From contig JABIXH010000256.1 of the NCBI GenBank assembly GCA_018664975.1, positions 1 through 34,089 of the forward strand: a stretch of 34,089 bases of DNA. The letters run 5' to 3'. The stretch is from Nitrospina sp. GTDB taxonomy: Bacteria > Nitrospinota > Nitrospinia > Nitrospinales > VA-1. The translations under genes and the position numbers were made by a program. The number at the start of each line of letters is the position of its first letter. The stretch's first letter is position 1. The notes beneath the pieces were generated by a model. That model did no database searches. It was not told the DNA's origin and saw only the letters and a program-made list of their open reading frames with translations. Shown piece after piece: positions 20,174 through 32,110 of this stretch.

Positions 20174-21601
20174 TTAAAACCATTTTTTCCTTTTACTTGC
20201 AGGGGGAATATTTAGTTCCTTTCTATATTTAGTAATAGTTCTTCGTGCTATTTTAGCATTTTTCCTCATTAACGCTTCCACCATTTGATCATCGGTTAAG
20301 GGATTACTCCCGTCTTCTTCATTAATGATTTCCTTAATCATGTTTTTAACCCGTATGGAGGACATGCTATTGCCCATATAGGATTTGATACCACTGTGGA
20401 AAAAGAATTTAAGTTCAAATATTCCCTGGGGAGTATCTATATATTTATTTGTAGTGATTCTACTTACCGTTGATTCATGCATTTCAATATCTTTAGCAAC
20501 ATCTTTCAGGACCATGGGTTCTAAATAGGATAATCCGTCATCTAAAAAACCTTTTTGCAGTTTTACGATACTTTTTCCGACTTTATAGATGGTTTGTCTG
20601 CGCTGGTCGATACTTTTAATCAACCATAAGGCAGACCGGAACTTGTCTTCCAAATACTCCTTGGTTTGCCCTTCTTTGGTGGTCTTTAATAGATTGTGAT
20701 AGTAGGAACTAACCTTAAGGCTAGGAACGCCATCATCATTTAAGACCACATCGTATCCCTCATCCGTTTTAATGACAACAAGGTCGGGGACAACATAGTC
20801 GACCTTTTCGGAACTGAATAAAAGCCCAGGTTTCGGGCATAAATCCCTGATAATTTTCAAGGCATCTAGAACTTCATTTAAATCAATTTTTAATTCTGAG
20901 GCAACTTTTGACAGGAACCTGTCTTCCAACCGCTCCAAATAATTTTCAATAAGTATTTCTACATAAGGGTTTTTGTCAGGAAGGGCGCGAGCCTGGTTTA
21001 TCAGGCATTCTTTCAGGGATCGGGCGGCTACTCCCAGGGGTTCAAAATTTTGTATTATGCTTAGAACCCTTTGAACATTTTCTTCTTGTGTATTACAGAT
21101 TGTGGCAATTTCATTTAGATCCGCACATAGATACCCATCATTTTGAATGTTTCCGATAATGCATGATCCTATAAACTTATCCAATTCAGAATCAACGGCT
21201 AAATCAAGTTGCCACATGAGATGGTCTGCTAAATCGGCCTCTTTTTTATATGTGGACTCAATAGACGGTCTTTCTGCATAACTTTCAACTGACATGCCTT
21301 TATCAATGTTGCCCTGAAAATAACTGTCCCAGTCTATTTCCTGGTCCTGAGAGGTAGAGCTAGGTTCTATATCTGAATTGAAGTCTTCATTGGGCTCTGC
21401 TTCCTCAGAATTGTTTTCCTGATCATTTTCTTCTTCAAGTAATTCTTCCAAAACTGGATTTTCTATAATTTCTTGTCTTACTAATTGGGCAAGCTCAAGT
21501 CTTGCCAAAGGCAGGAGCTTGATGGCCTGTTGAAGCATGGGCGTCATGACCAGCTTCTGGCTCATCTTGAGGTTCAAATTCATTTTCATTTCCATTGCCA
21601 T
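20174..21601 (-). CDS. rpoN: RNA polymerase sigma-54 factor
   Basis: Alternative sigma factor needing an AAA+ activator. 475 aa. Region I is Gln/Leu-rich (LKMSQKLVMTPMLQQAIKLL), region II is acidic (about 58-95, many Glu/Asp), then comes the core-binding region. The DNA-binding part includes a helix-turn-helix (KDVAKDIEMHESTVSRIT) and ends with the RpoN box ARRTITKYRKELNIPPA near the C-terminus. ATG 21601 is preceded by GGGAG at a slightly long distance; nearby in-frame ATGs at codons 3, 5 and 7 are alternatives. It is followed by hpf and preceded by lptB, the order seen in many proteobacteria. Confidence 0.96.
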   Translation of the reverse strand: MAMEMKMNLNLKMSQKLVMTPMLQQAIKLLPLARLELAQLVRQEIIENPVLEELLEEENDQENNSEEAEPNEDFNSDIEPSSTSQDQEIDWDSYFQGNIDKGMSVESYAERPSIESTYKKEADLADHLMWQLDLAVDSELDKFIGSCIIGNIQNDGYLCADLNEIATICNTQEENVQRVLSIIQNFEPLGVAARSLKECLINQARALPDKNPYVEILIENYLERLEDRFLSKVASELKIDLNEVLDALKIIRDLCPKPGLLFSSEKVDYVVPDLVVIKTDEGYDVVLNDDGVPSLKVSSYYHNLLKTTKEGQTKEYLEDKFRSALWLIKSIDQRRQTIYKVGKSIVKLQKGFLDDGLSYLEPMVLKDVAKDIEMHESTVSRITTNKYIDTPQGIFELKFFFHSGIKSYMGNSMSSIRVKNMIKEIINEEDGSNPLTDDQMVEALMRKNAKIARRTITKYRKELNIPPASKRKKWF

Positions 21602-21618
21602 AATTTATTGCTCCCGGC

Positions 21619-22341
21619 TTAAAATGAAAACTGGTTGCCCAGATAAATCTGTTTAACTTTTTCATCCTGGGCAACATCCATCGGTTTTCCCGATGAGATG
21701 ATTTCCCCGGCGTTAATAATATATGCGCGGTCAGTAATGCTTAGGGTTTCCCTGACGTTATGATCGGTGATTAAAACACCAATCCCCTTGTTTTTTAATT
21801 GTGAAATTATGGATTGAATATCAGCAACGGCAATAGGGTCAATCCCTGCAAAGGGTTCGTCTAAAAGAATAAATATTGGCGATGTCGCTAAAGCCCTACT
21901 AATTTCGACCCTTCTCCGCTCTCCCCCTGAAAGTGAAAATGCTTTGGAGTCTTTTATGTGGAGGATGTTAAGTTCGCGCAGGAGTGACCGGGCTTTTTTC
22001 TTGCAGTCAAAACTGGAAAGCTTTTGGGTCTCTAGAACCGCAATAATATTTTCCTCCACCGTCAATTTTCTAAAAACCGAAGGCTCTTGTGGCAAATAAC
22101 TGACCCCTTTTTTGGCTCGTTCATGCATGGGAAAATGGGTGACATCCTCATCATTTAATAGAACTTTGCCGTCATCAGGACGGGTCAGTCCTACGACCAT
22201 GTAAAAGGTGGTGGTTTTGCCAGCGCCATTTGGACCTAACAACCCCACAATTTCACCCTTCTTAACTTCGATACTTATTTTATTGACAACCTTTCGAGTT
22301 CGGTATGACTTGACAAGGTTTTCAGTTCTTAGGCCGGTCAC
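21619..22341 (-). CDS. lptB: LPS export ABC transporter ATP-binding protein LptB
   Basis: ATPase of the LptB2FG machine that extracts lipopolysaccharide from the inner membrane. It has Walker [10 protein letters not shown], signature SLSGGERRR, Walker [13 protein letters not shown] and switch histidine in ITDHN. An upstream ATG at 22416 would add 25 residues that overlap lptA and match nothing in the family. GTG 22341 lies one base after the lptA stop and gives the usual length (240 aa) and N-terminus ([13 protein letters not shown]), so I prefer it; translation would be coupled to lptA. The permease genes lptF and lptG are not in this window. Confidence 0.94.
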
Positions 22342-22342
22342 T

Positions 22343-22906
22343 TTATTTCTTTTTAGAGGAGGAGAGTTGATTTTGATCAGTGGATTTAGACTTCTTTCCT
22401 GGTTTATTGTCTTCATCTTTTGGATAAATTTTCATACGTACTCTTTCATTGACCACAAACCTGTCTTTCTCCAAAAGAAAAATCATTTCCCGACCTTCAA
22501 TCATATTGTCCTCTTCCCATGCGGTGGCTTTTGGGGTGCCCGTTAAAATTATTTTTTGTAGTTTATCCAGATAGACAGCGCGATCCCCGGTAGCTCTTTT
22601 TAATCCTCGAGTAATAACAACATTGCCAATAGCTACAATCTCGTCAGTTTCTTTTTTATCTTCGGTGTTGTAAACCTCCATAATGTCCGAGGTGATTTTC
22701 AGGTCGTCCTGATAACTCACTACATTGCCGGAAAAAACTATTTTAACTCCCCCATTTTCAGACCGCATTCGATCAGAGGTGATTTCAATAGGGGATTTGC
22801 TTTTTTTTGATTTTTCTTTTAGAGGACTCCCACCTTGAGCACTGACAGGTATAACCATCAATACCCAGGCAATAAAAATATATAATCCGAACGATTTAAT
22901 TTTCAT
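22343..22906 (-). CDS. lptA: LPS transport periplasmic protein LptA
   Basis: Forms the periplasmic bridge carrying LPS between LptC and LptD. 187 aa with a signal peptide: basic start, hydrophobic core [14 protein letters not shown], likely cut after VSA near residue 23. The OstA-type beta-jellyroll follows, with repeats such as [28 protein letters not shown] and [19 protein letters not shown]. The C-terminal 30 residues are highly charged, rich in Lys and Ser. It starts 6 bases after lptC, and its stop is one base ahead of the preferred lptB start. Confidence 0.92.
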
Positions 22907-22912
22907 ATGATT

Positions 22913-23347
22913 TTATTGCTTTTGAGATGCTGTCGGAGATTTGGTATTTAACCTGTCCATCAAAATATCCGGGGAACCTACAAATTTCACATTACCCATT
23001 AAATTAACGTCCTTGGTGGCTTTCTTATAGGTTCCTGAATCCGCAGAAATGACGTATTTTTTGTTTTCGGCCTTGTGAAGGATCATTTCCACATTTTGCA
23101 TTTTAGTCAGGTCTTCCTGGTTGTTGATTTGCGCAAAATCCGCTTTAAGTTCCCACTCTTTGACACCTTTAACTTCGTGAGCCACTCGGAAATTCTCAAT
23201 CTCAACATCAATCCCTTTTTCCATTATTTTGACTTTAATGTTTCCAATCTCGACCGAGGTATTGATATTTTTAAAAATATAATATCCGGCCGCGCCAATA
23301 ATGCAGAAGGCCAGTAACAGTAAAACTCTCCTGATGGTATTAATCAT
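22913..23347 (-). CDS. lptC: LPS export protein LptC
   Basis: Bitopic inner-membrane protein that passes LPS from LptB2FG to LptA. 144 aa with a single N-terminal membrane helix (about 5-25, RRVLLLLAFCIIGAAGYYIF) and a periplasmic OstA-like domain (VEIENFRVAHEVKGVKEWEL, AENKKYVISADSGTY). It is shorter than E. coli LptC (191 aa), within the range of diverged members. Sequence similarity in this family is low, so context supports the call: it is first in lptC-lptA-lptB. The kdsC/kdsD genes often found upstream are replaced here by tsaE and nnr. Confidence 0.88.
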   Translation of the reverse strand: MINTIRRVLLLLAFCIIGAAGYYIFKNINTSVEIGNIKVKIMEKGIDVEIENFRVAHEVKGVKEWELKADFAQINNQEDLTKMQNVEMILHKAENKKYVISADSGTYKKATKDVNLMGNVKFVGSPDILMDRLNTKSPTASQKQ

Positions 23348-23357
23348 TTAAATATTT

Positions 23358-23386
23358 AATTTATAAAGCATTATGGGTATATGCAA
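23358..23386 (-). promoter_or_regulatory. Possible sigma-70 promoter for the lptC-lptA-lptB-rpoN operon
   Basis: On the minus strand TTGCAT (23386-23381) and TAAATT (23363-23358) are separated by 17 bases, in the 77-base gap just ahead of lptC. The -35 has four or five consensus bases; the -10 is weaker. The start site would be very near the lptC ATG, giving a short leader. Confidence 0.3.
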
Positions 23387-23424
23387 ATGGCATACCACGG
23401 ATCTAATCATTACATATCAAAACT

Positions 23425-23907
23425 TTAAAGTAAAGTGAAATCAGGGAAAGAACGGGGGGCGGGGAGAAAGGTATTGAAGGTGAATTCTCGCTGAGAATCA
23501 CTGATTACTTTAATATTAATTTCTATTCTATCCTGAATATTTAAGAGAAGCTTGTCCGGGTTTTGGGATGATCGCAGTTTCTCTGCCCACTCAATAATAG
23601 TAACGCCTTGGTTGTATATAATTTCTTCCAGGCCGAGCGAATAAATTTCTTCAAGGCTGTCGAGACGGTAAAGATCAATATGGTAAATGGGAAGTCTTCC
23701 AGAGTACTCATTGATTAAGGTGAAAGTTGGGCTACGAATGTAGAAGTCTTTATCGAGTTCTAAACCGTGGCAGATTCCTTGGGTAAAGCAGGTTTTTCCC
23801 GCACCGAGATCTCCGAATAAAAGAATGATGTCGCCTGCTTCCAAGGAACTCCCGAGTGATTTTCCTAACTGCAGGGTTTCTTCCATACTATTAGATACTT
23901 TTTTCAC
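23425..23907 (-). CDS. tsaE: tRNA threonylcarbamoyladenosine biosynthesis ATPase TsaE
   Basis: ATPase needed with TsaB and TsaD to make t6A37 in ANN-decoding tRNAs. 160 aa with P-loop FGDLGAGKT (about 31-39), SPTFTLINEY, HIDLYRLDSLEE and VTIIEWAEKL, all hallmarks of the family. The GTG at 23907 overlaps the nnr end region (one base between stop and start), suggesting coupled translation; an in-frame ATG seven codons later (23886) is an alternative. The nnr-tsaE pairing is common in bacteria. Confidence 0.94.
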   Translation of the reverse strand: MKKVSNSMEETLQLGKSLGSSLEAGDIILLFGDLGAGKTCFTQGICHGLELDKDFYIRSPTFTLINEYSGRLPIYHIDLYRLDSLEEIYSLGLEEIIYNQGVTIIEWAEKLRSSQNPDKLLLNIQDRIEINIKVISDSQREFTFNTFLPAPRSFPDFTLL

Positions 23908-23908
23908 T

Positions 23909-25447
23909 TTATGGAAGTATGCGTTTCAGAGTTTCCGGAAGAGACCTTAGTAAATCTCCTGCTATCAATGTGGTTTCGCTTTCATTTTTTGCAAAATAAT
24001 CCCCTGCTTGACCGTGTATATAGGAACCTGCTATGGAAGCTTGGGGTAGGCCCTGAGCCATGAGCCCGGCAATAATTCCTGTTAATACATCGCCCGACCC
24101 ACCAGTCGCCATCCCCGCATTTCCTGTAGGATTTATGATAACAGTTCCATCGGCCATGGCAATCAAGCTGGGAGAACCTTTCAAGACCAGAGTTAAAGAG
24201 TGGTCGGCGGCAAATTGTGAGGCGGTAGCAATGCGGTTTTTTTGAATTTTTTGAGTTGCTAATCCCATTAAGCGGGACATTTCTTTGGGGTGCGGAGTAA
24301 GAACGGTTTCAGGATTCAAGATATCCAACCAGTTCTTATGAGTCGATATCGCGTTCAAGGCATCGGCATCTATCACTAAAGGACACTTAATCAATGGCAG
24401 GAGTTCACCGACTAGAGCAACAGTTTCCGGGTCTGTGGTTAATCCCGGTCCGATGGCCATTGCAGACTTATCTTTGAGATGTTCCAAAATAAGCTCTTTT
24501 GCCTTCAAAGATAATGTTCCATTAGCGGTTTCAGGAAGAGGGACCGTCATCACCTCCATGGGATGGACCGCTTTCTGACAGGATTCTGGAAAGGCCAATG
24601 TACATAAACCGGCTCCAGATCGCAGGACAGCCAGAGCGGTTAGTCCTGCCGCTCCCTCTTTACCTCTTGATCCCGCCAATACCAGAACATGACCGTAATC
24701 GCCTTTGTGACTATTGGGATTTCGTTTGTGGAAATAGGATTTTAAATCTTTCTCCTCAGACTGGTGGACTCGAATATTTTGGCTTTTTACAGATTTTTCC
24801 GGAATTCCAATATCAATAAGCCGGATTTCTTTCATGACACCCGCTGAAGGGTGGAGTAAATGGCTTTGCTTCCAACAGGCAAGGGCCAGGGTCAAATCGG
24901 ATTTAACATGTGGACCTATTAATTGCCCGCTGTCAGAGTCCAAACCCGAATTGATGTCCACCGAGACAACAAACTTTTTAAATTGATTGATTTTTGCGAT
25001 GACTTGTTCAGCGAAGCCGGATGCAGGTTTATTTAATCCCGTCCCGAAAACGGCATCAATGATGATGTCGCAATGGCGCAGTTTATGGTCATACTGGTTC
25101 AAGTTATCCGCGTCTAACTCGTTTACCTGAACCCCGATATTTTGCGCTGAAAGAGCGTTAACGCCTGCACCACCTTTTAACTCAGAAAATTTCCCAGCTA
25201 AAAGGACCCGTATGTCAGAGCCCAGATTAAAAAGATGCCGTGCGATGACAAAACCATCCCCACCATTATTACCTTTACCGCAAAATACGAAAATCTTTTT
25301 TTGGGAGAGGTCTGGAAAATGTTTTTGCAGGTCCTTAAAGATTCCAACTCCTGCATTTTCCATAAGAGTGATGCCTGGAATTCCAAGCTCATCAATGGCA
25401 TGGCGGTCGATGGCCTGCATTTGTTTTGCTGTAACGACGGGAAGCAA
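23909..25447 (-). CDS. nnr: Bifunctional NAD(P)HX epimerase / ADP-dependent dehydratase
   Basis: Repairs hydrated NADH and NADPH. 512 aa in two domains. The N-terminal epimerase (about 1-215, NnrE/YjeF_N) has GKGNNGGDGFVIARHL and AVFGTGLNKP. The C-terminal dehydratase (about 225-512, NnrD/carbohydrate-kinase-like) has the HKGDYGHVLVLAGS start, DADALN, TPHPKEM and the nucleotide-site TGGSGDVLTGIIAG. The start is TTG 25447, preceded by GGAG seven bases upstream; no ATG lies in frame before the conserved VTAKQMQAID. It heads the long same-strand block ending in metK. Confidence 0.95.
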   Translation of the reverse strand: MLPVVTAKQMQAIDRHAIDELGIPGITLMENAGVGIFKDLQKHFPDLSQKKIFVFCGKGNNGGDGFVIARHLFNLGSDIRVLLAGKFSELKGGAGVNALSAQNIGVQVNELDADNLNQYDHKLRHCDIIIDAVFGTGLNKPASGFAEQVIAKINQFKKFVVSVDINSGLDSDSGQLIGPHVKSDLTLALACWKQSHLLHPSAGVMKEIRLIDIGIPEKSVKSQNIRVHQSEEKDLKSYFHKRNPNSHKGDYGHVLVLAGSRGKEGAAGLTALAVLRSGAGLCTLAFPESCQKAVHPMEVMTVPLPETANGTLSLKAKELILEHLKDKSAMAIGPGLTTDPETVALVGELLPLIKCPLVIDADALNAISTHKNWLDILNPETVLTPHPKEMSRLMGLATQKIQKNRIATASQFAADHSLTLVLKGSPSLIAMADGTVIINPTGNAGMATGGSGDVLTGIIAGLMAQGLPQASIAGSYIHGQAGDYFAKNESETTLIAGDLLRSLPETLKRILP

Positions 25448-25586: not shown

Positions 25587-26264
25587 CTAACATTTCAGCT
25601 CTTTATAATCCTGCAGTCGTTTGCCTTTTTCATCCTGAAAGCAATCCTTTGTTATTTTCATTTTATACATTCTATCCAAACGGAAATTGCGAAAATCATC
25701 GCGCATTTCGCACCATCCTAAAAGGAGCCATACAGGGCCGAAGAATGCCAGGCATAGCGGTCGCACCCGTCGGGTTGATACCTGGCCATCTTCTCTTGTG
25801 TAGCTGAATTTCACATAATTTTTGCTGCGGATAGCCCGGCGAGCTGCTGTGAAATCAATAGTAATAACGGGCTTTACTTGGGTGGGCAATGAAAACAAAA
25901 AAGTCTCAGCAATTTCTTGTTGCAGGCTCTCAGGTAGGACGGAAGTGATTTTATCAATGGCCTGATGTGCGGCTTTAATCAGCCCCTTATCGCCCCAGCT
26001 TTCCACCATTTGTGCTCCCAGCATCAATGCATCCAGTTCCTCAATATCAAACATTAATGGGCGCACTACATAATTTTTATCAAGCAAATAGCCTACGCCG
26101 GGCTCCCCAATAATTGGGACGTTGGATGCTCCTAGATCGGCAATATCGCGGTATATGGTGCGTACGCTTACCTCCAGTTTCCTGGATAGAGATTTAGCAG
26201 TCACGACTTGTCTGCGTGCTTTTAGATATTCGACTATGCGGAATAGTCGATCTGCTCTACGCAT
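25587..26264 (-). CDS. HTH/WYL-domain transcriptional regulator (YafY family)
   Basis: A 225-residue regulator. The N-terminal winged helix (HTH_11 type, about 1-60) has SRKLEVSVRTIYRDIADL as recognition region. The C-terminal WYL domain (about 135-205) has VRPLCLAFFGPVWLLLGWCE and FRNFRLDRM, with WLLLGWC in the position of the name-giving WYL. WYL domains sense ligands, often nucleic acid or small molecules. ATG 26264 has a strong AAGGAGG site. It is divergent from the VOC-VOC-tag genes, with a palindrome between them, so it probably regulates itself and that cluster. Confidence 0.9.
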   Translation of the reverse strand: MRRADRLFRIVEYLKARRQVVTAKSLSRKLEVSVRTIYRDIADLGASNVPIIGEPGVGYLLDKNYVVRPLMFDIEELDALMLGAQMVESWGDKGLIKAAHQAIDKITSVLPESLQQEIAETFLFSLPTQVKPVITIDFTAARRAIRSKNYVKFSYTREDGQVSTRRVRPLCLAFFGPVWLLLGWCEMRDDFRNFRLDRMYKMKITKDCFQDEKGKRLQDYKELKC

Positions 26265-26304
26265 TACACCTCCTTATTTAAATTAATCCTACACTACTGT
26301 CACG

Positions 26305-26328
26305 CTACTGACAACACGCTGTCAGTAG
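26305..26328. promoter_or_regulatory. Palindromic operator candidate between WYL regulator and VOC genes
   Basis: Perfect 9-base inverted repeat CTACTGACA (26305-26313), spacer ACACGC, TGTCAGTAG (26320-26328). A further half-site-like CACTACTGTCA lies immediately upstream (from 26292). Its position midway in the divergent gap suits an operator for the WYL regulator. No T-run follows either arm, so it is not a simple terminator. Confidence 0.6.
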
Positions 26329-26393
26329 TGCTGTGGATAATGCTAAAAAAAACTTGAAAGAGTCGAATAATTTAATTATCAAAGGAGGCTATC

Positions 26394-26855
26394 GTGACTA
26401 CTATTCCCAATGGATTTACTTCCGTAACACCCTATGTCGTAATGGATGATGCGGCGGCGGCTGTTAAGTTTTATAGAAAAGCATTTGGTGCAGAAGAAAA
26501 AATGTGTCTCTCTACGCCTGACGGAAAAGTGATGTATGCCGAGATACAGGTAGGCAATGCTCGTATAATGATGGGTGGGCCTTGTCCTGAATCGGGAGGT
26601 GATCTGACAAAATCAGCTAAAAGTCTCGGTGGCTCACCTATATCCTTTTATGTTTATGTTGAGGATGTGGAGACAGCTTTTAATAAAGCAAAAGAGGCGG
26701 GAATGACCGAGAAAAAAGGTATTGAAAATATGTTCTGGGGTGATCGAATGGGAACCCTCACTGATCCGTTTGATGTGGAATGGACCATCGCGGAACATGT
26801 ACGAGATGTCCCGTTGGAAGAAATGGAAGAGGTTATGAAAAATATGGCTTGCTAA
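26394..26855 (+). CDS. VOC-fold protein, PhnB/glyoxalase-like
   Basis: 153 aa of the vicinal-oxygen-chelate fold, close to the PhnB/YdcG-type proteins (GFTSVTPYVVMDDAAAAVKF, YRKAFGAEE, ARIMMGGP, WGDRMGTLTDPFDVEWTIAEH). No specific reaction can be inferred; members include resistance proteins and uncharacterised enzymes. The start is GTG 26394, with an excellent AAAGGAGG site about 6 bases ahead. It is the first gene of a plus-strand cluster with a second VOC gene and tag, divergent from the WYL regulator. Confidence 0.88.
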   Translation: MTTIPNGFTSVTPYVVMDDAAAAVKFYRKAFGAEEKMCLSTPDGKVMYAEIQVGNARIMMGGPCPESGGDLTKSAKSLGGSPISFYVYVEDVETAFNKAKEAGMTEKKGIENMFWGDRMGTLTDPFDVEWTIAEHVRDVPLEEMEEVMKNMAC

Positions 26856-26924
26856 CACTCCGATTGCAGGGGGTGAAAATTAATGCTGGCTAATTATTTT
26901 AGGATTGGCAAGGAGGAAAAATTT

Positions 26925-27275
26925 ATGGGCAACATAAACAACAGTATAAATTATATTGAACTGCCTATGGTTAAAAACGATGAAACAAAAAAATTCTATA
27001 ATCAGGTGTTTGGGTGGGAGTTTGCGGATTGGGGACCTGATTATATTAGTTTTTCCGGGGCAAATATTGATGGGGGTTTTAATGGGGTAGGGGACGCCGA
27101 GGTATCAAACTCAGGTGTTCTTGTGGTTTTATATGCTAATGACCTTGATCAAAAGCTTGAAGAAGTGAAAAGTGCTGGTGGAGAAATCTCAAAACCTGTT
27201 TTTGAGTTTCCCGGAGGAAAGAGATTCCACTTCCGTGACCCAAATGGAAATGAACTTGCTGTATGGTCAGAATAA
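26925..27275 (+). CDS. Second VOC-fold protein, glyoxalase-like
   Basis: 116 aa with paired beta-alpha-beta modules (INYIELPMVKNDETKKFYNQ, VFGWEFADWGPDYISF, then VLVVLYANDLDQKLEEVKSAGG and GKRFHFRDPNGNELAVWSE). The frame extends to an ATG at 26883, but ATG 26925 has AAGGAGG (26910-26916) at ideal spacing and gives the family N-terminus. It resembles single-module VOC proteins annotated as lactoylglutathione lyase-like. It is in the same cluster as the first VOC gene and tag; the substrate is unknown. Confidence 0.87.
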   Translation: MGNINNSINYIELPMVKNDETKKFYNQVFGWEFADWGPDYISFSGANIDGGFNGVGDAEVSNSGVLVVLYANDLDQKLEEVKSAGGEISKPVFEFPGGKRFHFRDPNGNELAVWSE

Positions 27276-27293
27276 TTTTTGCAGAGAGTAACA

Positions 27294-27866
27294 GTGATAA
27301 AACGATGTGCATGGGTGGGTAATAATTCAAAGCCGCTGGATATTAAATATCATGATGAAGAATGGGGTGTTCCTGTTCATGATGAAAGAACATTATTCGA
27401 GTTTCTAATTTTGGAAGGCGCACAGGCAGGACTCAGTTGGACTACCATCCTTAAAAAACGTGAAAATTATCGCAAGGCCTATGACAATTTTAATCCCAAA
27501 AAAGTCTCTAAATATAATGACACCAAACAACAGGAGCTCCTGCTGAATGAAGGCATTGTACGAAATCGCTTAAAAGTTGCGGCTTCTGTTACCAATGCCA
27601 AGGCATTTATAGCGGTGCAAAAGGAATTTGGGGGCTTCGATAAATATATCTGGGGGTTTGTCGGTGGCAAAGCCATGCAAAATAGATGGGAGTCTTTGGA
27701 AGCACTCCCCGCAACGACAAAGGAATCGGAAACGATGAGCAAAGATTTAAAAAAACGGGGTTTTAAATTTGTAGGTTCTACTATCTGCTATGCCTTCATG
27801 CAGGCAACAGGTATGGTCAATGATCATACTACCGATTGCTATAGGCATAAAGAACTGCTTGATTGA
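27294..27866 (+). CDS. tag: DNA-3-methyladenine glycosylase I
   Basis: Excises 3-methyladenine from alkylated DNA. The family core is plain: KRCAWVG, YHDEEWGVPVHD, LFEFLILEGAQAGLSW, and the C-terminal HTTDCYRH. The zinc ligands of E. coli Tag are matched by C5, H20 and the C-terminal His and Cys (from the start chosen here). The frame runs back to a TTG at 27279, but GTG 27294 gives the expected N-terminus and about 190 aa (E. coli 187). Placement behind two VOC genes under a WYL regulator suggests a stress- or damage-responsive cluster; that is inference. Confidence 0.94.
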   Translation: MIKRCAWVGNNSKPLDIKYHDEEWGVPVHDERTLFEFLILEGAQAGLSWTTILKKRENYRKAYDNFNPKKVSKYNDTKQQELLLNEGIVRNRLKVAASVTNAKAFIAVQKEFGGFDKYIWGFVGGKAMQNRWESLEALPATTKESETMSKDLKKRGFKFVGSTICYAFMQATGMVNDHTTDCYRHKELLD

Positions 27867-27906: not shown

Positions 27907-28521
27907 TCACACAAAAACTGTATATGGGTAATCGTTGGATTCATTGAGAGCCATTTCCTCCCGAGTGGGTGCCAGTCCGTTGACTACTCCAAACAGGTGA
28001 GGACAATCATAGCCGAGTTGGACTTTCTTTTCGCGCTCAAGGGAATTGAAATGTTCCGGGTCGACAAGGAATGCTCGATTGAAGAAATATTGGGTGATAA
28101 AGCTACCCAGGAATACAGATTTGCCTTTTAGTTCAGGAAGGAGTGTCAATTTTTCCGGTAAACTGTCATGGTTATAGTTAAAAGAAAAGCGGACTAACAC
28201 ATCGTATAAAAAACAAAAGTGGTAGGTGTTCATATGATGCCAGCAGGATTTTTCGTTTAACCCAACCTGTAATATATTCAAAATATCTTTAAGGCTGAGC
28301 AGGGAGTTGCTTCTGCCTGCATGAGGGTAGAATTGTTGAAAATCTTCTCTCCAGTACATTTTGGGCTGGCGTTCAATGAATGATAAAACCTCCTCATCCT
28401 GATTTAAGGCGACTTCAATAAAATGGCGAGGATCAAAATTGGAATCGTAATCTGTATCCGGAGAAGTGGCTTGATTGCCAGGAGATGAGGTTTCGTAAAT
28501 ATTATTTTTGAAAACCAACAT
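27907..28521 (-). CDS. Uncharacterised protein, paralogue of the gene at 29204
   Basis: 204 aa of a family I do not recognise. No signal peptide or membrane segment, so probably cytoplasmic. It aligns along its whole length with the product at 29204, sharing roughly a third of residues by eye. Shared blocks are ML-FK-NIY at the start, FYPHAGR/FPHASR near residue 65, KSxWxxMNxYHxxxLxD near 95-110, YFFxxAFL near 145, and EKK--L then LFGVVN near 170-180. The invariant His, Asp and Arg in these blocks could be ligand or catalytic residues. The ribosome site is weak. It is divergent from the glutathione peroxidase gene. Confidence 0.75.
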   Translation of the reverse strand: MLVFKNNIYETSSPGNQATSPDTDYDSNFDPRHFIEVALNQDEEVLSFIERQPKMYWREDFQQFYPHAGRSNSLLSLKDILNILQVGLNEKSCWHHMNTYHFCFLYDVLVRFSFNYNHDSLPEKLTLLPELKGKSVFLGSFITQYFFNRAFLVDPEHFNSLEREKKVQLGYDCPHLFGVVNGLAPTREEMALNESNDYPYTVFV

Positions 28522-28613
28522 TTGAAAAGACTCTTGAAATATTTCGCTCTATTATACCCTAACTTTAAGGTCAGTTTTGACCTGCAACCCTTACTTAAGA
28601 AGAAATAAAACCC

Positions 28614-29183
28614 TTGAATAAAAATATTTATAATTTTGAAGTAGAAAATATTGATAAAGAACCCGTCAATCTTTCCTCCTTTCAAGGACAGGTTTTGCTG
28701 ATTGTCAATGTGGCTTCTGAATGTGGGTTCACCCCGCAATATTTGGATTTGCAAAACCTATATGAAAAATATAAGGATCAAGGATTGAGTGTTCTGGCTT
28801 TTCCTTGCAACGATTTTGGTTCTCAGGAACCGGGGACTAACGAAAGTATAAAAGAATTTTGCCATAAAAACTATCAAGTGACATTTGATCTTATGAATAA
28901 GGTGTCTGTTTTGGGTGCGGAGAAATTCCCTCTTTATCAATATATATATAATTGTCGTCTGAAGCATCAGGGAAGGGGAGTGGTATCCCAACTATTTAAG
29001 CTGGTTAAACCCGTGTTGTATCGAATTAAAGGGATGCCGATTCCTGAAAAAAATGAGGCTCAATGGAATTTCCATAAATTTCTGGTTGGAAAAAATGGAG
29101 TTCCGGTAGCAAGTTTTTTGAGCGAGGTGAGTCCAGACGCCAGTATCTTTATTCAAAAGCTTGAAGAGGAGTTGCGAAAATAA
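28614..29183 (+). CDS. Glutathione peroxidase-family protein
   Basis: Thiol peroxidase of 189 aa. The peroxidatic cysteine C37 lies in VASECGFTPQY. FPCNDFGSQEPG and WNFHKFLVGKNG are the other family blocks. The usual catalytic glutamine of the FPCNQFG motif is aspartate (D67), and the place where many non-selenium members carry a resolving cysteine reads KVSVLG, with no Cys. A basic insertion (residues about 115-138, LKLVKPVLYRIKG region) precedes the WNF block. The start is TTG 28614; no ATG lies earlier in frame. It sits between the two uncharacterised paralogues, divergent from one and convergent with the other. Confidence 0.9.
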   Translation: MNKNIYNFEVENIDKEPVNLSSFQGQVLLIVNVASECGFTPQYLDLQNLYEKYKDQGLSVLAFPCNDFGSQEPGTNESIKEFCHKNYQVTFDLMNKVSVLGAEKFPLYQYIYNCRLKHQGRGVVSQLFKLVKPVLYRIKGMPIPEKNEAQWNFHKFLVGKNGVPVASFLSEVSPDASIFIQKLEEELRK

Positions 29184-29203
29184 AAACCCGTATTGAGATT
29201 TAT

Positions 29204-29800
29204 TTAGGGTGAATAAGGGGTTTCCACACTCGTCTTGAATTGGGTTTCTTCTCCATCAGGAATGAGTCTGTTGACAACCCCAAATAAGCAGGGATCAGTA
29301 AGATTTAAGCGCTTCTTTTCTTCTGCGGACATATTATTGTAACGTTCAGCATTCATTAAAAATGCTGTCCCGAAAAAATAATTGTCAAGAAAATGGTCGA
29401 AATCAATAATTTCTCCCTTAAGATTGGGAAACATTTCTTTTCTTTCTTCGGGTTCCAGGTAGCTGTACTCTTCATAGGAGCCATGCAGACTGTCAAACAA
29501 ATATGTCATGTGATAGGCGTTCATGGAATACCAACGGCTTTTGTTTACCAATCCTTCAAGGAGTGACTGTGAGAAAATTTTTAATAATGAAACAGAACCA
29601 AACCTTGATGCATGAGGAAACAAAGTCTTAAAATGACTCTGGCTTTCCTGTTGAGGAAGTTGTTCTAATCCGTTAAATATTTCACGGTCAGTAGTCAGAG
29701 ATTTGAAAATAAAATCATAGGGGTCCAGATATTGCTGGATTCCATTTTCTGGATTCGAGTCGTTACTTATATCGTAAATATTTTTTTTAAAAATTAGCAT
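29204..29800 (-). CDS. Uncharacterised protein, paralogue of the gene at 27907
   Basis: 198 aa of the same unrecognised family as the product at 27907. It contains MLIFKKNIYDIS, LFPHASRFGS, NKSRWYSMNAYHMTYLFDSL, DNYFFGTAFL, SAEEKKRLNL and LFGVVNRLIPDGEE. It has no cysteine-rich motif, signal peptide or membrane helix. Divergence from its neighbour suggests an old duplication or separately maintained roles. The start lies only 25 bases from the divergent UDP-glucose pyrophosphorylase start, so promoters must overlap coding sequence, or the neighbour starts later. The 3' end nearly meets the peroxidase gene (20 bases). Confidence 0.75.
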   Translation of the reverse strand: MLIFKKNIYDISNDSNPENGIQQYLDPYDFIFKSLTTDREIFNGLEQLPQQESQSHFKTLFPHASRFGSVSLLKIFSQSLLEGLVNKSRWYSMNAYHMTYLFDSLHGSYEEYSYLEPEERKEMFPNLKGEIIDFDHFLDNYFFGTAFLMNAERYNNMSAEEKKRLNLTDPCLFGVVNRLIPDGEETQFKTSVETPYSP

Positions 29801-29825: not shown

Positions 29826-31229
29826 ATGGTTCAGTTTATCATGGAACCAAAGGGTTTCGGTATGCTTGAAAGTAAAGATCCTTTATGGAGTGCATTGGGT
29901 AAATTGCTTGAACCTTCCCAATTGAATATTTATTGGGAAATGATTTCCCATTATCGTCAAGGCCCATCAAAAATTCAGGATTGGGATTCCATTAAGAGTC
30001 CAGATTCGGAGAGCTTGCTGGATTATTCCCGCTTGCCATCCCCCGAAGATTCAAAGACGGCGCAACAATTATCCAAGCTTGTTGTGGGCAAACTTAATGG
30101 CGGCATGGGAACCAGCATGGGTTGTATGGGGCCAAAGTCTCTGGTGATGGTGCGAAATAATAAATCATTTCTGGATTTGATCCTGGAGCAGGTTGAGAAC
30201 CTGAACCGTGAATGGAAGCAGAAAATTCCTGTTCTATTGATGAACAGTTTTTACACGCATAAAGATACCCAGGCCCATCTAAATTCACTGAATTTTTCCT
30301 CAGAAATAATTGGTTTTCAGCAAAATAAATTTCCACGCTTGCATGCGGGGAACCTGAATCCACTTACTCCGGAAAAATGGGGGGACCAGACATTTTACCC
30401 ACCAGGGCATGGGGATTTTTTTCAATGTGTGTCCCAACAGGGGATCTTGCAAAGGCTGATTGATGAAGGCAGGGAAATTCTCTTTATGTCTAATGCCGAT
30501 AATCTCGGGGCAGTCATGGATCCAGTCATTTTGAACTATATGGATGAATTCAATATTCCTTTCCTAATGGAAATGACTCCCAAGACTTCAGCAGATGTCA
30601 AAGGGGGTACCCTTTACCAGGTAGATGGAAAACTCAAATTATTGGAAATTGCTCAGGTTCCTGATGACAAAGTTGACGATTTTTGTGATCAGAATAAGTT
30701 CAAAGTGTTTAATACCAACAATATCTGGGTCAACCTGATTGCTTTGAACAAAAGGCTGAGTCAGGGGCCATTAAATTTGACGGTTTTGGTAAATGAAAAG
30801 AAGCTAGGGGATACTCCCATTGTGCAACTTGAAACGGCTATAGGTTCTGCTTTGGAATGCTTCGAGGGTGCGGTAGGACTAACAGTTTCGCGTGTGCGTT
30901 TTCTGCCGGTTAAAAAAACGGATGATTTACTGTTGGTGCGTTCCAATCTTTTTAACCTGGATAAGGGGCAATTAAAACGAAATCCAATAAGAAAGTCGAA
31001 ACAGTTACCAAAGATAAACCTGGGAAATTTTCTGCAAAATATAGAAAATTTTCAAAATAGTTTTCCAATCATTCCAGACCTTATTGATTTGGAAGAGTTG
31101 ATGATTAAGGGTGATGTGCGCTTTGAGGGAAAGGCTTCCCTCAAAGGAAAGGTGAATTTGGAGGGTTTAAAAAATGTTTTGGTGCTTCCATCAGAAATAT
31201 TGATAGCCGATGAGAGTCGGCAGGGGTGA
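29826..31229 (+). CDS. UTP-glucose-1-phosphate uridylyltransferase, eukaryotic-type
   Basis: Makes UDP-glucose from UTP and glucose-1-phosphate for polysaccharides and glycolipids. 467 aa of the UDPGP family (the eukaryotic kind, distinct from bacterial GalU of about 300 aa). The nucleotide loop KLNGGMGTSMGCMGPKS is at about 89-105, followed by SNADNLGAVMDP and FNTNNIWVNL. The C-terminal end (FEGKASLKGKVNLEGL) looks like the start of a left-handed beta-helix, as in these enzymes. Translation could start at ATG 29826, 29841 or 29862; none has a clear ribosome site. It is divergent from the uncharacterised paralogue. Confidence 0.91.
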   Translation: MVQFIMEPKGFGMLESKDPLWSALGKLLEPSQLNIYWEMISHYRQGPSKIQDWDSIKSPDSESLLDYSRLPSPEDSKTAQQLSKLVVGKLNGGMGTSMGCMGPKSLVMVRNNKSFLDLILEQVENLNREWKQKIPVLLMNSFYTHKDTQAHLNSLNFSSEIIGFQQNKFPRLHAGNLNPLTPEKWGDQTFYPPGHGDFFQCVSQQGILQRLIDEGREILFMSNADNLGAVMDPVILNYMDEFNIPFLMEMTPKTSADVKGGTLYQVDGKLKLLEIAQVPDDKVDDFCDQNKFKVFNTNNIWVNLIALNKRLSQGPLNLTVLVNEKKLGDTPIVQLETAIGSALECFEGAVGLTVSRVRFLPVKKTDDLLLVRSNLFNLDKGQLKRNPIRKSKQLPKINLGNFLQNIENFQNSFPIIPDLIDLEELMIKGDVRFEGKASLKGKVNLEGLKNVLVLPSEILIADESRQG

Positions 31230-31681: not shown

Positions 31682-32110
31682 ATGAAAAAACTCGCTGTTG
31701 TACTACTTGTTGCTGTTGCATCTTTTTGTCTCGCCAGTTCCGCATTTGCAGGGTCGTTGGCTCCGGGTGCAATGACTAAATGTAATAATGCTAAATCTAT
31801 CACCCTGGAAAATACGGGTGGCGGAGCGATTGATCGCGGTGAAGGAAATGCTTCAATTTGGAAATCTTCAAACTTTACTACCGTTCCTGTAAGCTTGAGT
31901 CCGACTGCTAACCAAGGTTTCTCGACGGATGGTGGTGGAGCGGCTGGCAATTCTTATGTGAAAATGCCCAGTAAGCACTCTATGGGACAAACTAAAGTAA
32001 CCTTGATGGGCCAAAGCAATTTCAGCCGTGGCGATTCCATTGGAGACATCAGTGGTGAAGTTAGAATCACCAATACGGGTACAACCAATCTTAATGTAAG
32101 CTGTGGTTAA
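31682..32110 (+). CDS. Small secreted protein of unknown function with two cysteines
   Basis: 142 aa with a textbook Sec signal peptide: MKK, hydrophobic core LAVVLLVAVASF, cut after SAFA near residue 23. The mature 119 residues are rich in Gly, Ser, Thr and Asn, with one cysteine near each end (C34 in MTKCNN and C141 in the final VSCG) that could form a disulphide closing the chain. The pattern (SITLENTGGGAIDRGEG, GEVRITNTGTTNLNVSCG) suggests a beta-rich fold. No lipobox or outer-membrane anchor. It has its own strong promoter, long leader, good ribosome site and strong terminator, so it is probably abundant. I do not recognise the family. Confidence 0.82.
   Translation: MKKLAVVLLVAVASFCLASSAFAGSLAPGAMTKCNNAKSITLENTGGGAIDRGEGNASIWKSSNFTTVPVSLSPTANQGFSTDGGGAAGNSYVKMPSKHSMGQTKVTLMGQSNFSRGDSIGDISGEVRITNTGTTNLNVSCG

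Follow-up and report, generated by a model that had tools for sequence, protein, structure and literature searches.

Among the known marine nitrite oxidisers, the Nitrospinota are the main group, and to our knowledge few of their own proteins have been examined beyond the nitrite-oxidising machinery. The window analysed here, a stretch of 34,089 nt from Nitrospina sp. (GenBank assembly GCA_018664975.1, contig JABIXH010000256.1), contains two similar genes, here named P1 and P2, with a glutathione peroxidase gene between them (Table 1). A sequence-only reading had proposed that they encode paralogues of an unrecognised family, with a hint of a redox or peroxide link. What are these two proteins, and does the gene that lies between them say anything about what they do?

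Table 1. Genes of the window at and around P1 and P2, in window coordinates
Feature	Coordinates	Strand	Remarks
tsaE, lptC, lptA, lptB, rpoN	20174..23907	(-)	Constant downstream operon
nnr, probable NAD(P)H-hydrate epimerase/dehydratase	23909..25447	(-)	Putative, by inspection; adjoins P1 on the same strand in nearly all genomes
P1-nnr block: HTH/WYL-like regulator (-), two glyoxalase-like genes (+), methyladenine glycosylase (+)	25587..27866		
P1, orphan-family protein, nnr-proximal copy	27907..28521	(-)	204 aa, ATG start; orthologues across the order; pLDDT 91 model
Glutathione peroxidase (PF00255, E 1.2e-41), between P2 and P1	28614..29183	(+)	Pfam match; absent from several genera
P2, paralogue of P1, UGP-proximal copy	29204..29800	(-)	198 aa, ATG start
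UGP, UTP--glucose-1-phosphate uridylyltransferase family (PF01704)	29826..31229	(+)	Divergent neighbour of P2, conserved

The positions and strand first given for the two open reading frames were confirmed, and the Pfam match of the middle gene bears out its naming as a peroxidase. The end-to-end BLASTP alignment of P1 and P2 (E 2e-39) spans 201 residues, of which 72 are identical (36%) and 105 positive, and has 4 gaps, in agreement with the earlier estimate that about a third of the residues are shared. The Smith-Waterman score of the pair was 326, compared with a mean of 34.4 (sd 5.7, maximum 61) for 1000 shuffles of P2. With respect to the nearest relative, dN/dS was 0.115 for P1 and 0.109 for P2, indicating purifying selection; the values for the peroxidase and nnr, measured for comparison, were 0.124 and 0.090. 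P1 and P2 are real, constrained paralogues. In the literature on Nitrospina proteomes, no usable detection of hypothetical proteins was found.

No Pfam or NCBIfam model reached its curated cut-off with either protein. DUF3106 (PF11304), the sole Pfam name raised for P2, was rejected as a chance match, since the likeness covers an 18-residue stretch at E 0.23, below the cut-off, in one of 77 members. Scanning 77 orthologues and paralogues singly against Pfam returned scattered chance-level matches only, alignment members scanned against NCBIfam fared no better, and a profile of 77 members found no match among PDB sequences (best E 0.46). The AlphaFold2 model of P1, built on a 77-row alignment, was compact and helical (mean pLDDT 91.0, pTM 0.89), a string of helices with short strands near residues 2-3, 94-96 and 193-195. 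A model of C1, a longer relative described below, reached a pLDDT of 79.5, and its elements follow one another in a similar way. Foldseek against the PDB gave a best E of 2.3 for both models (threshold E 0.001; TM about 0.2 for P1), and the P1 model had no match in a viral structure library. With nothing above cut-off in Pfam or NCBIfam and nothing in the PDB, the description of the family as unrecognised holds. These searches also bear on the idea that the proteins belong to an already known helical family, from which they have diverged too far for the tools used to see. Small helical domains can indeed escape both Foldseek and HMMER, but the chance-level Pfam matches, the PDB profile search and the Foldseek result, obtained despite a confident model, all speak against such an origin, which we consider rather unlikely.

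Within the phylum, a search with P2 detected family members in 64 of the 77 genomes, every one from the window's order, and the named records among the matches were Nitrospina, Nitrospinaceae and Nitrospinota MAGs. A profile search added two genomes of family f7, of the same class as the window, in which the relative is short and either cut by contig ends or incomplete. Outside the phylum, family profiles found no member in sets of about 215 and about 310 genomes, and neither tblastn of phages and plasmids nor a scan of viral contigs detected the family. A single-protein scan of a collection of 84,980 species returned Nitrospinota only, plus one contig filed under Emcibacteraceae. This 4.4-kb contig (L013), from a MAG titled Emcibacteraceae, has the gene order UGP-P2-GPx-P1-tag as in Nitrospina, and it is probably mis-binned.

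Most near-complete genomes of the order carry four members, P1 and P2 at a locus of the window's type and C1 and C2, of about 290-300 aa, elsewhere. The P and C profiles aligned by hhalign with 99.4% probability (E 4e-21, 158 columns), and all four proteins have in common the motifs MLxFxKxI and WxxxNxYH/YxxxxxD; judged by these alignments, they form one Nitrospinota family by common descent. The neighbour of C1 is hflKC/trk or a radical SAM gene; C2 adjoins nadE and an unknown protein of 146 aa. This protein, seen at L071 4358-4798 (+) just upstream of C2 and divergent from nadE, has no Pfam match and was present in all eight loci examined. In a quick, midpoint-rooted tree with long branches, where the C2 rows come from family f1 only, P2, C1 and C2 each form one side of a branch, and P1 is split by one divergent row, so that two changes are needed. 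In C1, in P1 and in P2 alike, several families of the order are represented, so the duplications predate its radiation; the quartet arose in Nitrospinota and had reached four copies before the order diversified. Within the collections searched, the P/C family appears undescribed and confined to the Nitrospinota lineage. It resembles other lineage-restricted orphan families in its fixed chromosomal sites in one order, its early duplication and the absence of matches in curated libraries; it differs from them by a confident predicted fold that the PDB does not match and by four persisting copies per genome.

The alignments also allowed us to look at the proposed active site. The conserved blocks described at first are all present in the window pair, but only part of them is kept across orthologues: in PHAxR only the Pro is fixed, with His in 53% of P1 and Arg replaced by Lys in 51% of P1, and LFGVVN is largely unconserved. 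The positions nearly fixed in P1 and P2 orthologues are P66, W94, N98, Y100, H101, D107, Y116, F141, Y145, F146 and F151. According to the alignment and the model, the pattern W-x-x-x-N-x-Y-H/Y-x5-D-x8-Y-N begins at a short strand and then runs along the longest central helix. Few features are as stable across the four groups as the N-terminal MLxFxKxI, whose K is shifted to position 6 in C1 and C2. C1 keeps P66, W94, N98, Y100 and Y116, has Tyr at position 101 in 88% of its members and Asp 107 in only 70%; C2 keeps H101 and D107, not W94. Because the Arg and His of PHAxR vary and C1 carries Tyr at 101, the invariant His/Asp/Arg site suggested earlier is not a family-wide feature.

Two of the nearly fixed residues, H101 and D107 of the central helix, could instead build a metal or acid-base site, which would make the family an enzyme. 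P1, P2 and C2 conserve both at 97-100%, Y100 and Y116 are close by, and YH and D are retained in the short relative from f7. Against this, C1 departs from both positions, no other His or Cys is conserved that could complete a site, and the fold matches no enzyme by Foldseek against the PDB; an enzymatic role for the family is therefore unlikely. An enzyme specific to P1, P2 and C2 is possible, since H101 and D107 are kept there almost without exception.

The gene neighbourhood of the homologues was found to be conserved, with UGP / P2-P1 / nnr-tsaE-lptCAB-rpoN as the constant arrangement. In 24 of 25 extended loci the P gene is on the nnr strand, either adjoining nnr or with a local insertion between, and in 24 of the 25 a P member is followed downstream by tsaE, lptC, lptA, lptB and rpoN; hpf, ptsN and ptsI come beyond rpoN where the sequence extends. 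UGP is divergent next to the P genes in nearly all loci. The P1-nnr block of the window is a local insertion, absent in other genera, and parts of it are present in only some loci of the window's genus. Adjoining UGP in 19 of the 25 extended loci is a 142-aa protein (window 31682-32110, (+)) that begins like a signal peptide and matches no Pfam family; it represents a second undescribed family, whose members are probably exported. The nnr neighbourhood of the P genes may be mere inheritance of gene order, because nnr, tsaE, lpt and rpoN are also linked in a family (locus L127) whose sole P-like gene lies elsewhere.

Not every lineage keeps both copies. The only copy next to nnr is of P1 type in g11 (G005), g3 (G023) and G052 and of P2 type in g16 and G012, suggesting that P1 and P2 are partly interchangeable; the existence of such one-copy lineages disfavours an obligate P1-P2 heteromer. 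In the streamlined genome G031 (1.7 Mb, 97% complete; L126 6141-9279), P2, the peroxidase and P1 are gone, UGP and nnr lie about 100 bp apart, and C1 and C2 remain elsewhere. This locus is a natural deletion, and since both P genes are missing there, the function of P1/P2 is dispensable in G031. The remaining Nitrospinales genomes without a P gene, as far as they were checked, also had no detectable nnr, and for this reason the P locus is probably unassembled in them.

The neighbours raise the possibility that P1 and P2 adjust the flow of glucose-1-phosphate by binding to glycogen phosphorylase or UDP-glucose pyrophosphorylase. In six genera from three families (g2, g6 (G047), g8, g11, g12 and g16), P2 or P1 is immediately preceded on its own strand by the glycogen phosphorylase gene glgP, with a spacing that ranges from overlapping to about 35 bp. 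The divergent UGP, the absence of both glgP and P genes from G031 and the glycogen deposits present in Nitrospina gracilis (PMC10839748) are in line with such a role. However, G009 (96% complete) and G045 (97% complete) hold P genes with no PF00343 match, which rules out glgP as an obligate partner, the glgP fragments of the window's genome are on other contigs, and the neighbours of C1 and C2 are quite different. We regard this storage-sugar role as improbable. In a single-contig genome, L086 2465-5524 (+) holds a 1019-aa open reading frame with glycine dehydrogenase domains in frame with a truncated glycogen phosphorylase, either a gene fusion or a misassembly.

The peroxidase itself adjoins the P genes in part of the order but is not homologous to them. 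Wherever the locus was read, in the window and in relatives, peroxidase and P genes are on opposite strands; the peroxidase converges with P2 and diverges from P1. Strong PF00255 matches occur in 30 genomes of the order, all at this locus, and the gene is nested there in seven genera of family f1 and in f3. The co-occurrence across genomes that a redox link would predict was not found: 22 genomes with P1 and/or P2, from g4, g5, g10-g12 and g14-g16, lack a strong match. We assume that their weak PF00255 matches (E about 1e-9 to 1e-6) come from other proteins with a thioredoxin fold, and where P2 and P1 share a contig in these genera, no peroxidase lies between them. P1 and P2 of the peroxidase-free g4 and g5 (53-57% and 50-53% identity to the window, respectively) are no more diverged than those of the peroxidase-bearing g2, g6, g7 and g8 (about 45-51%). 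G001, also of Nitrospinota, shows the reverse, a peroxidase with no family member. That P1 and P2 work with the peroxidase, for instance as reductant-supplying or regulatory partners, is very improbable: its confinement to this locus and the joint loss in G031 would fit, but the 22 genomes, the undiminished conservation in g4 and g5, the opposite strand, G001 and the lack of a conserved Cys pair in the family alignment all oppose it. This distribution rules out the peroxidase as a partner as a general rule. It is best explained as a dispensable passenger, and its nesting most plausibly reflects either a single insertion passed down in part of the order or an ancestral gene that part of the order has lost.

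Our favoured reading, held tentatively, is that P1 and P2 are soluble, mostly helical, non-catalytic binding or adaptor proteins of a lineage-specific four-copy family. An adaptor rather than an enzyme is suggested because aromatic, aliphatic, Asn or Pro residues occupy most of the conserved positions and because the one conserved His is replaced by Tyr in most C1. Both proteins are predicted to be cytoplasmic, as inspection revealed no signal peptide or membrane helix. Each member of the family keeps a core made of the N-terminal strand MLxFxKxI followed by helices, and the surface around Y100/H101/D107/Y116/N117 may be where the module docks onto another protein or a small ligand. The tasks of P1 and P2 would be similar and in part interchangeable, and their genes may share a transcript with nnr and, in the ancestral arrangement, with the glycogen phosphorylase gene, while the peroxidase on the opposite strand would be carried as a passenger.

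In conclusion, the position of a peroxidase between two paralogues is no evidence for a shared function. A further reading, which we consider less likely than not, is that a fold absent from solved structures arose in Nitrospinota, was present in four copies before the radiation of this order of dominant marine nitrite oxidisers and serves a conserved, lineage-specific cytoplasmic task. Lineage-confined, well modelled and unmatched in the PDB, the P/C family can serve to mark the order and is a clear candidate for structure determination.
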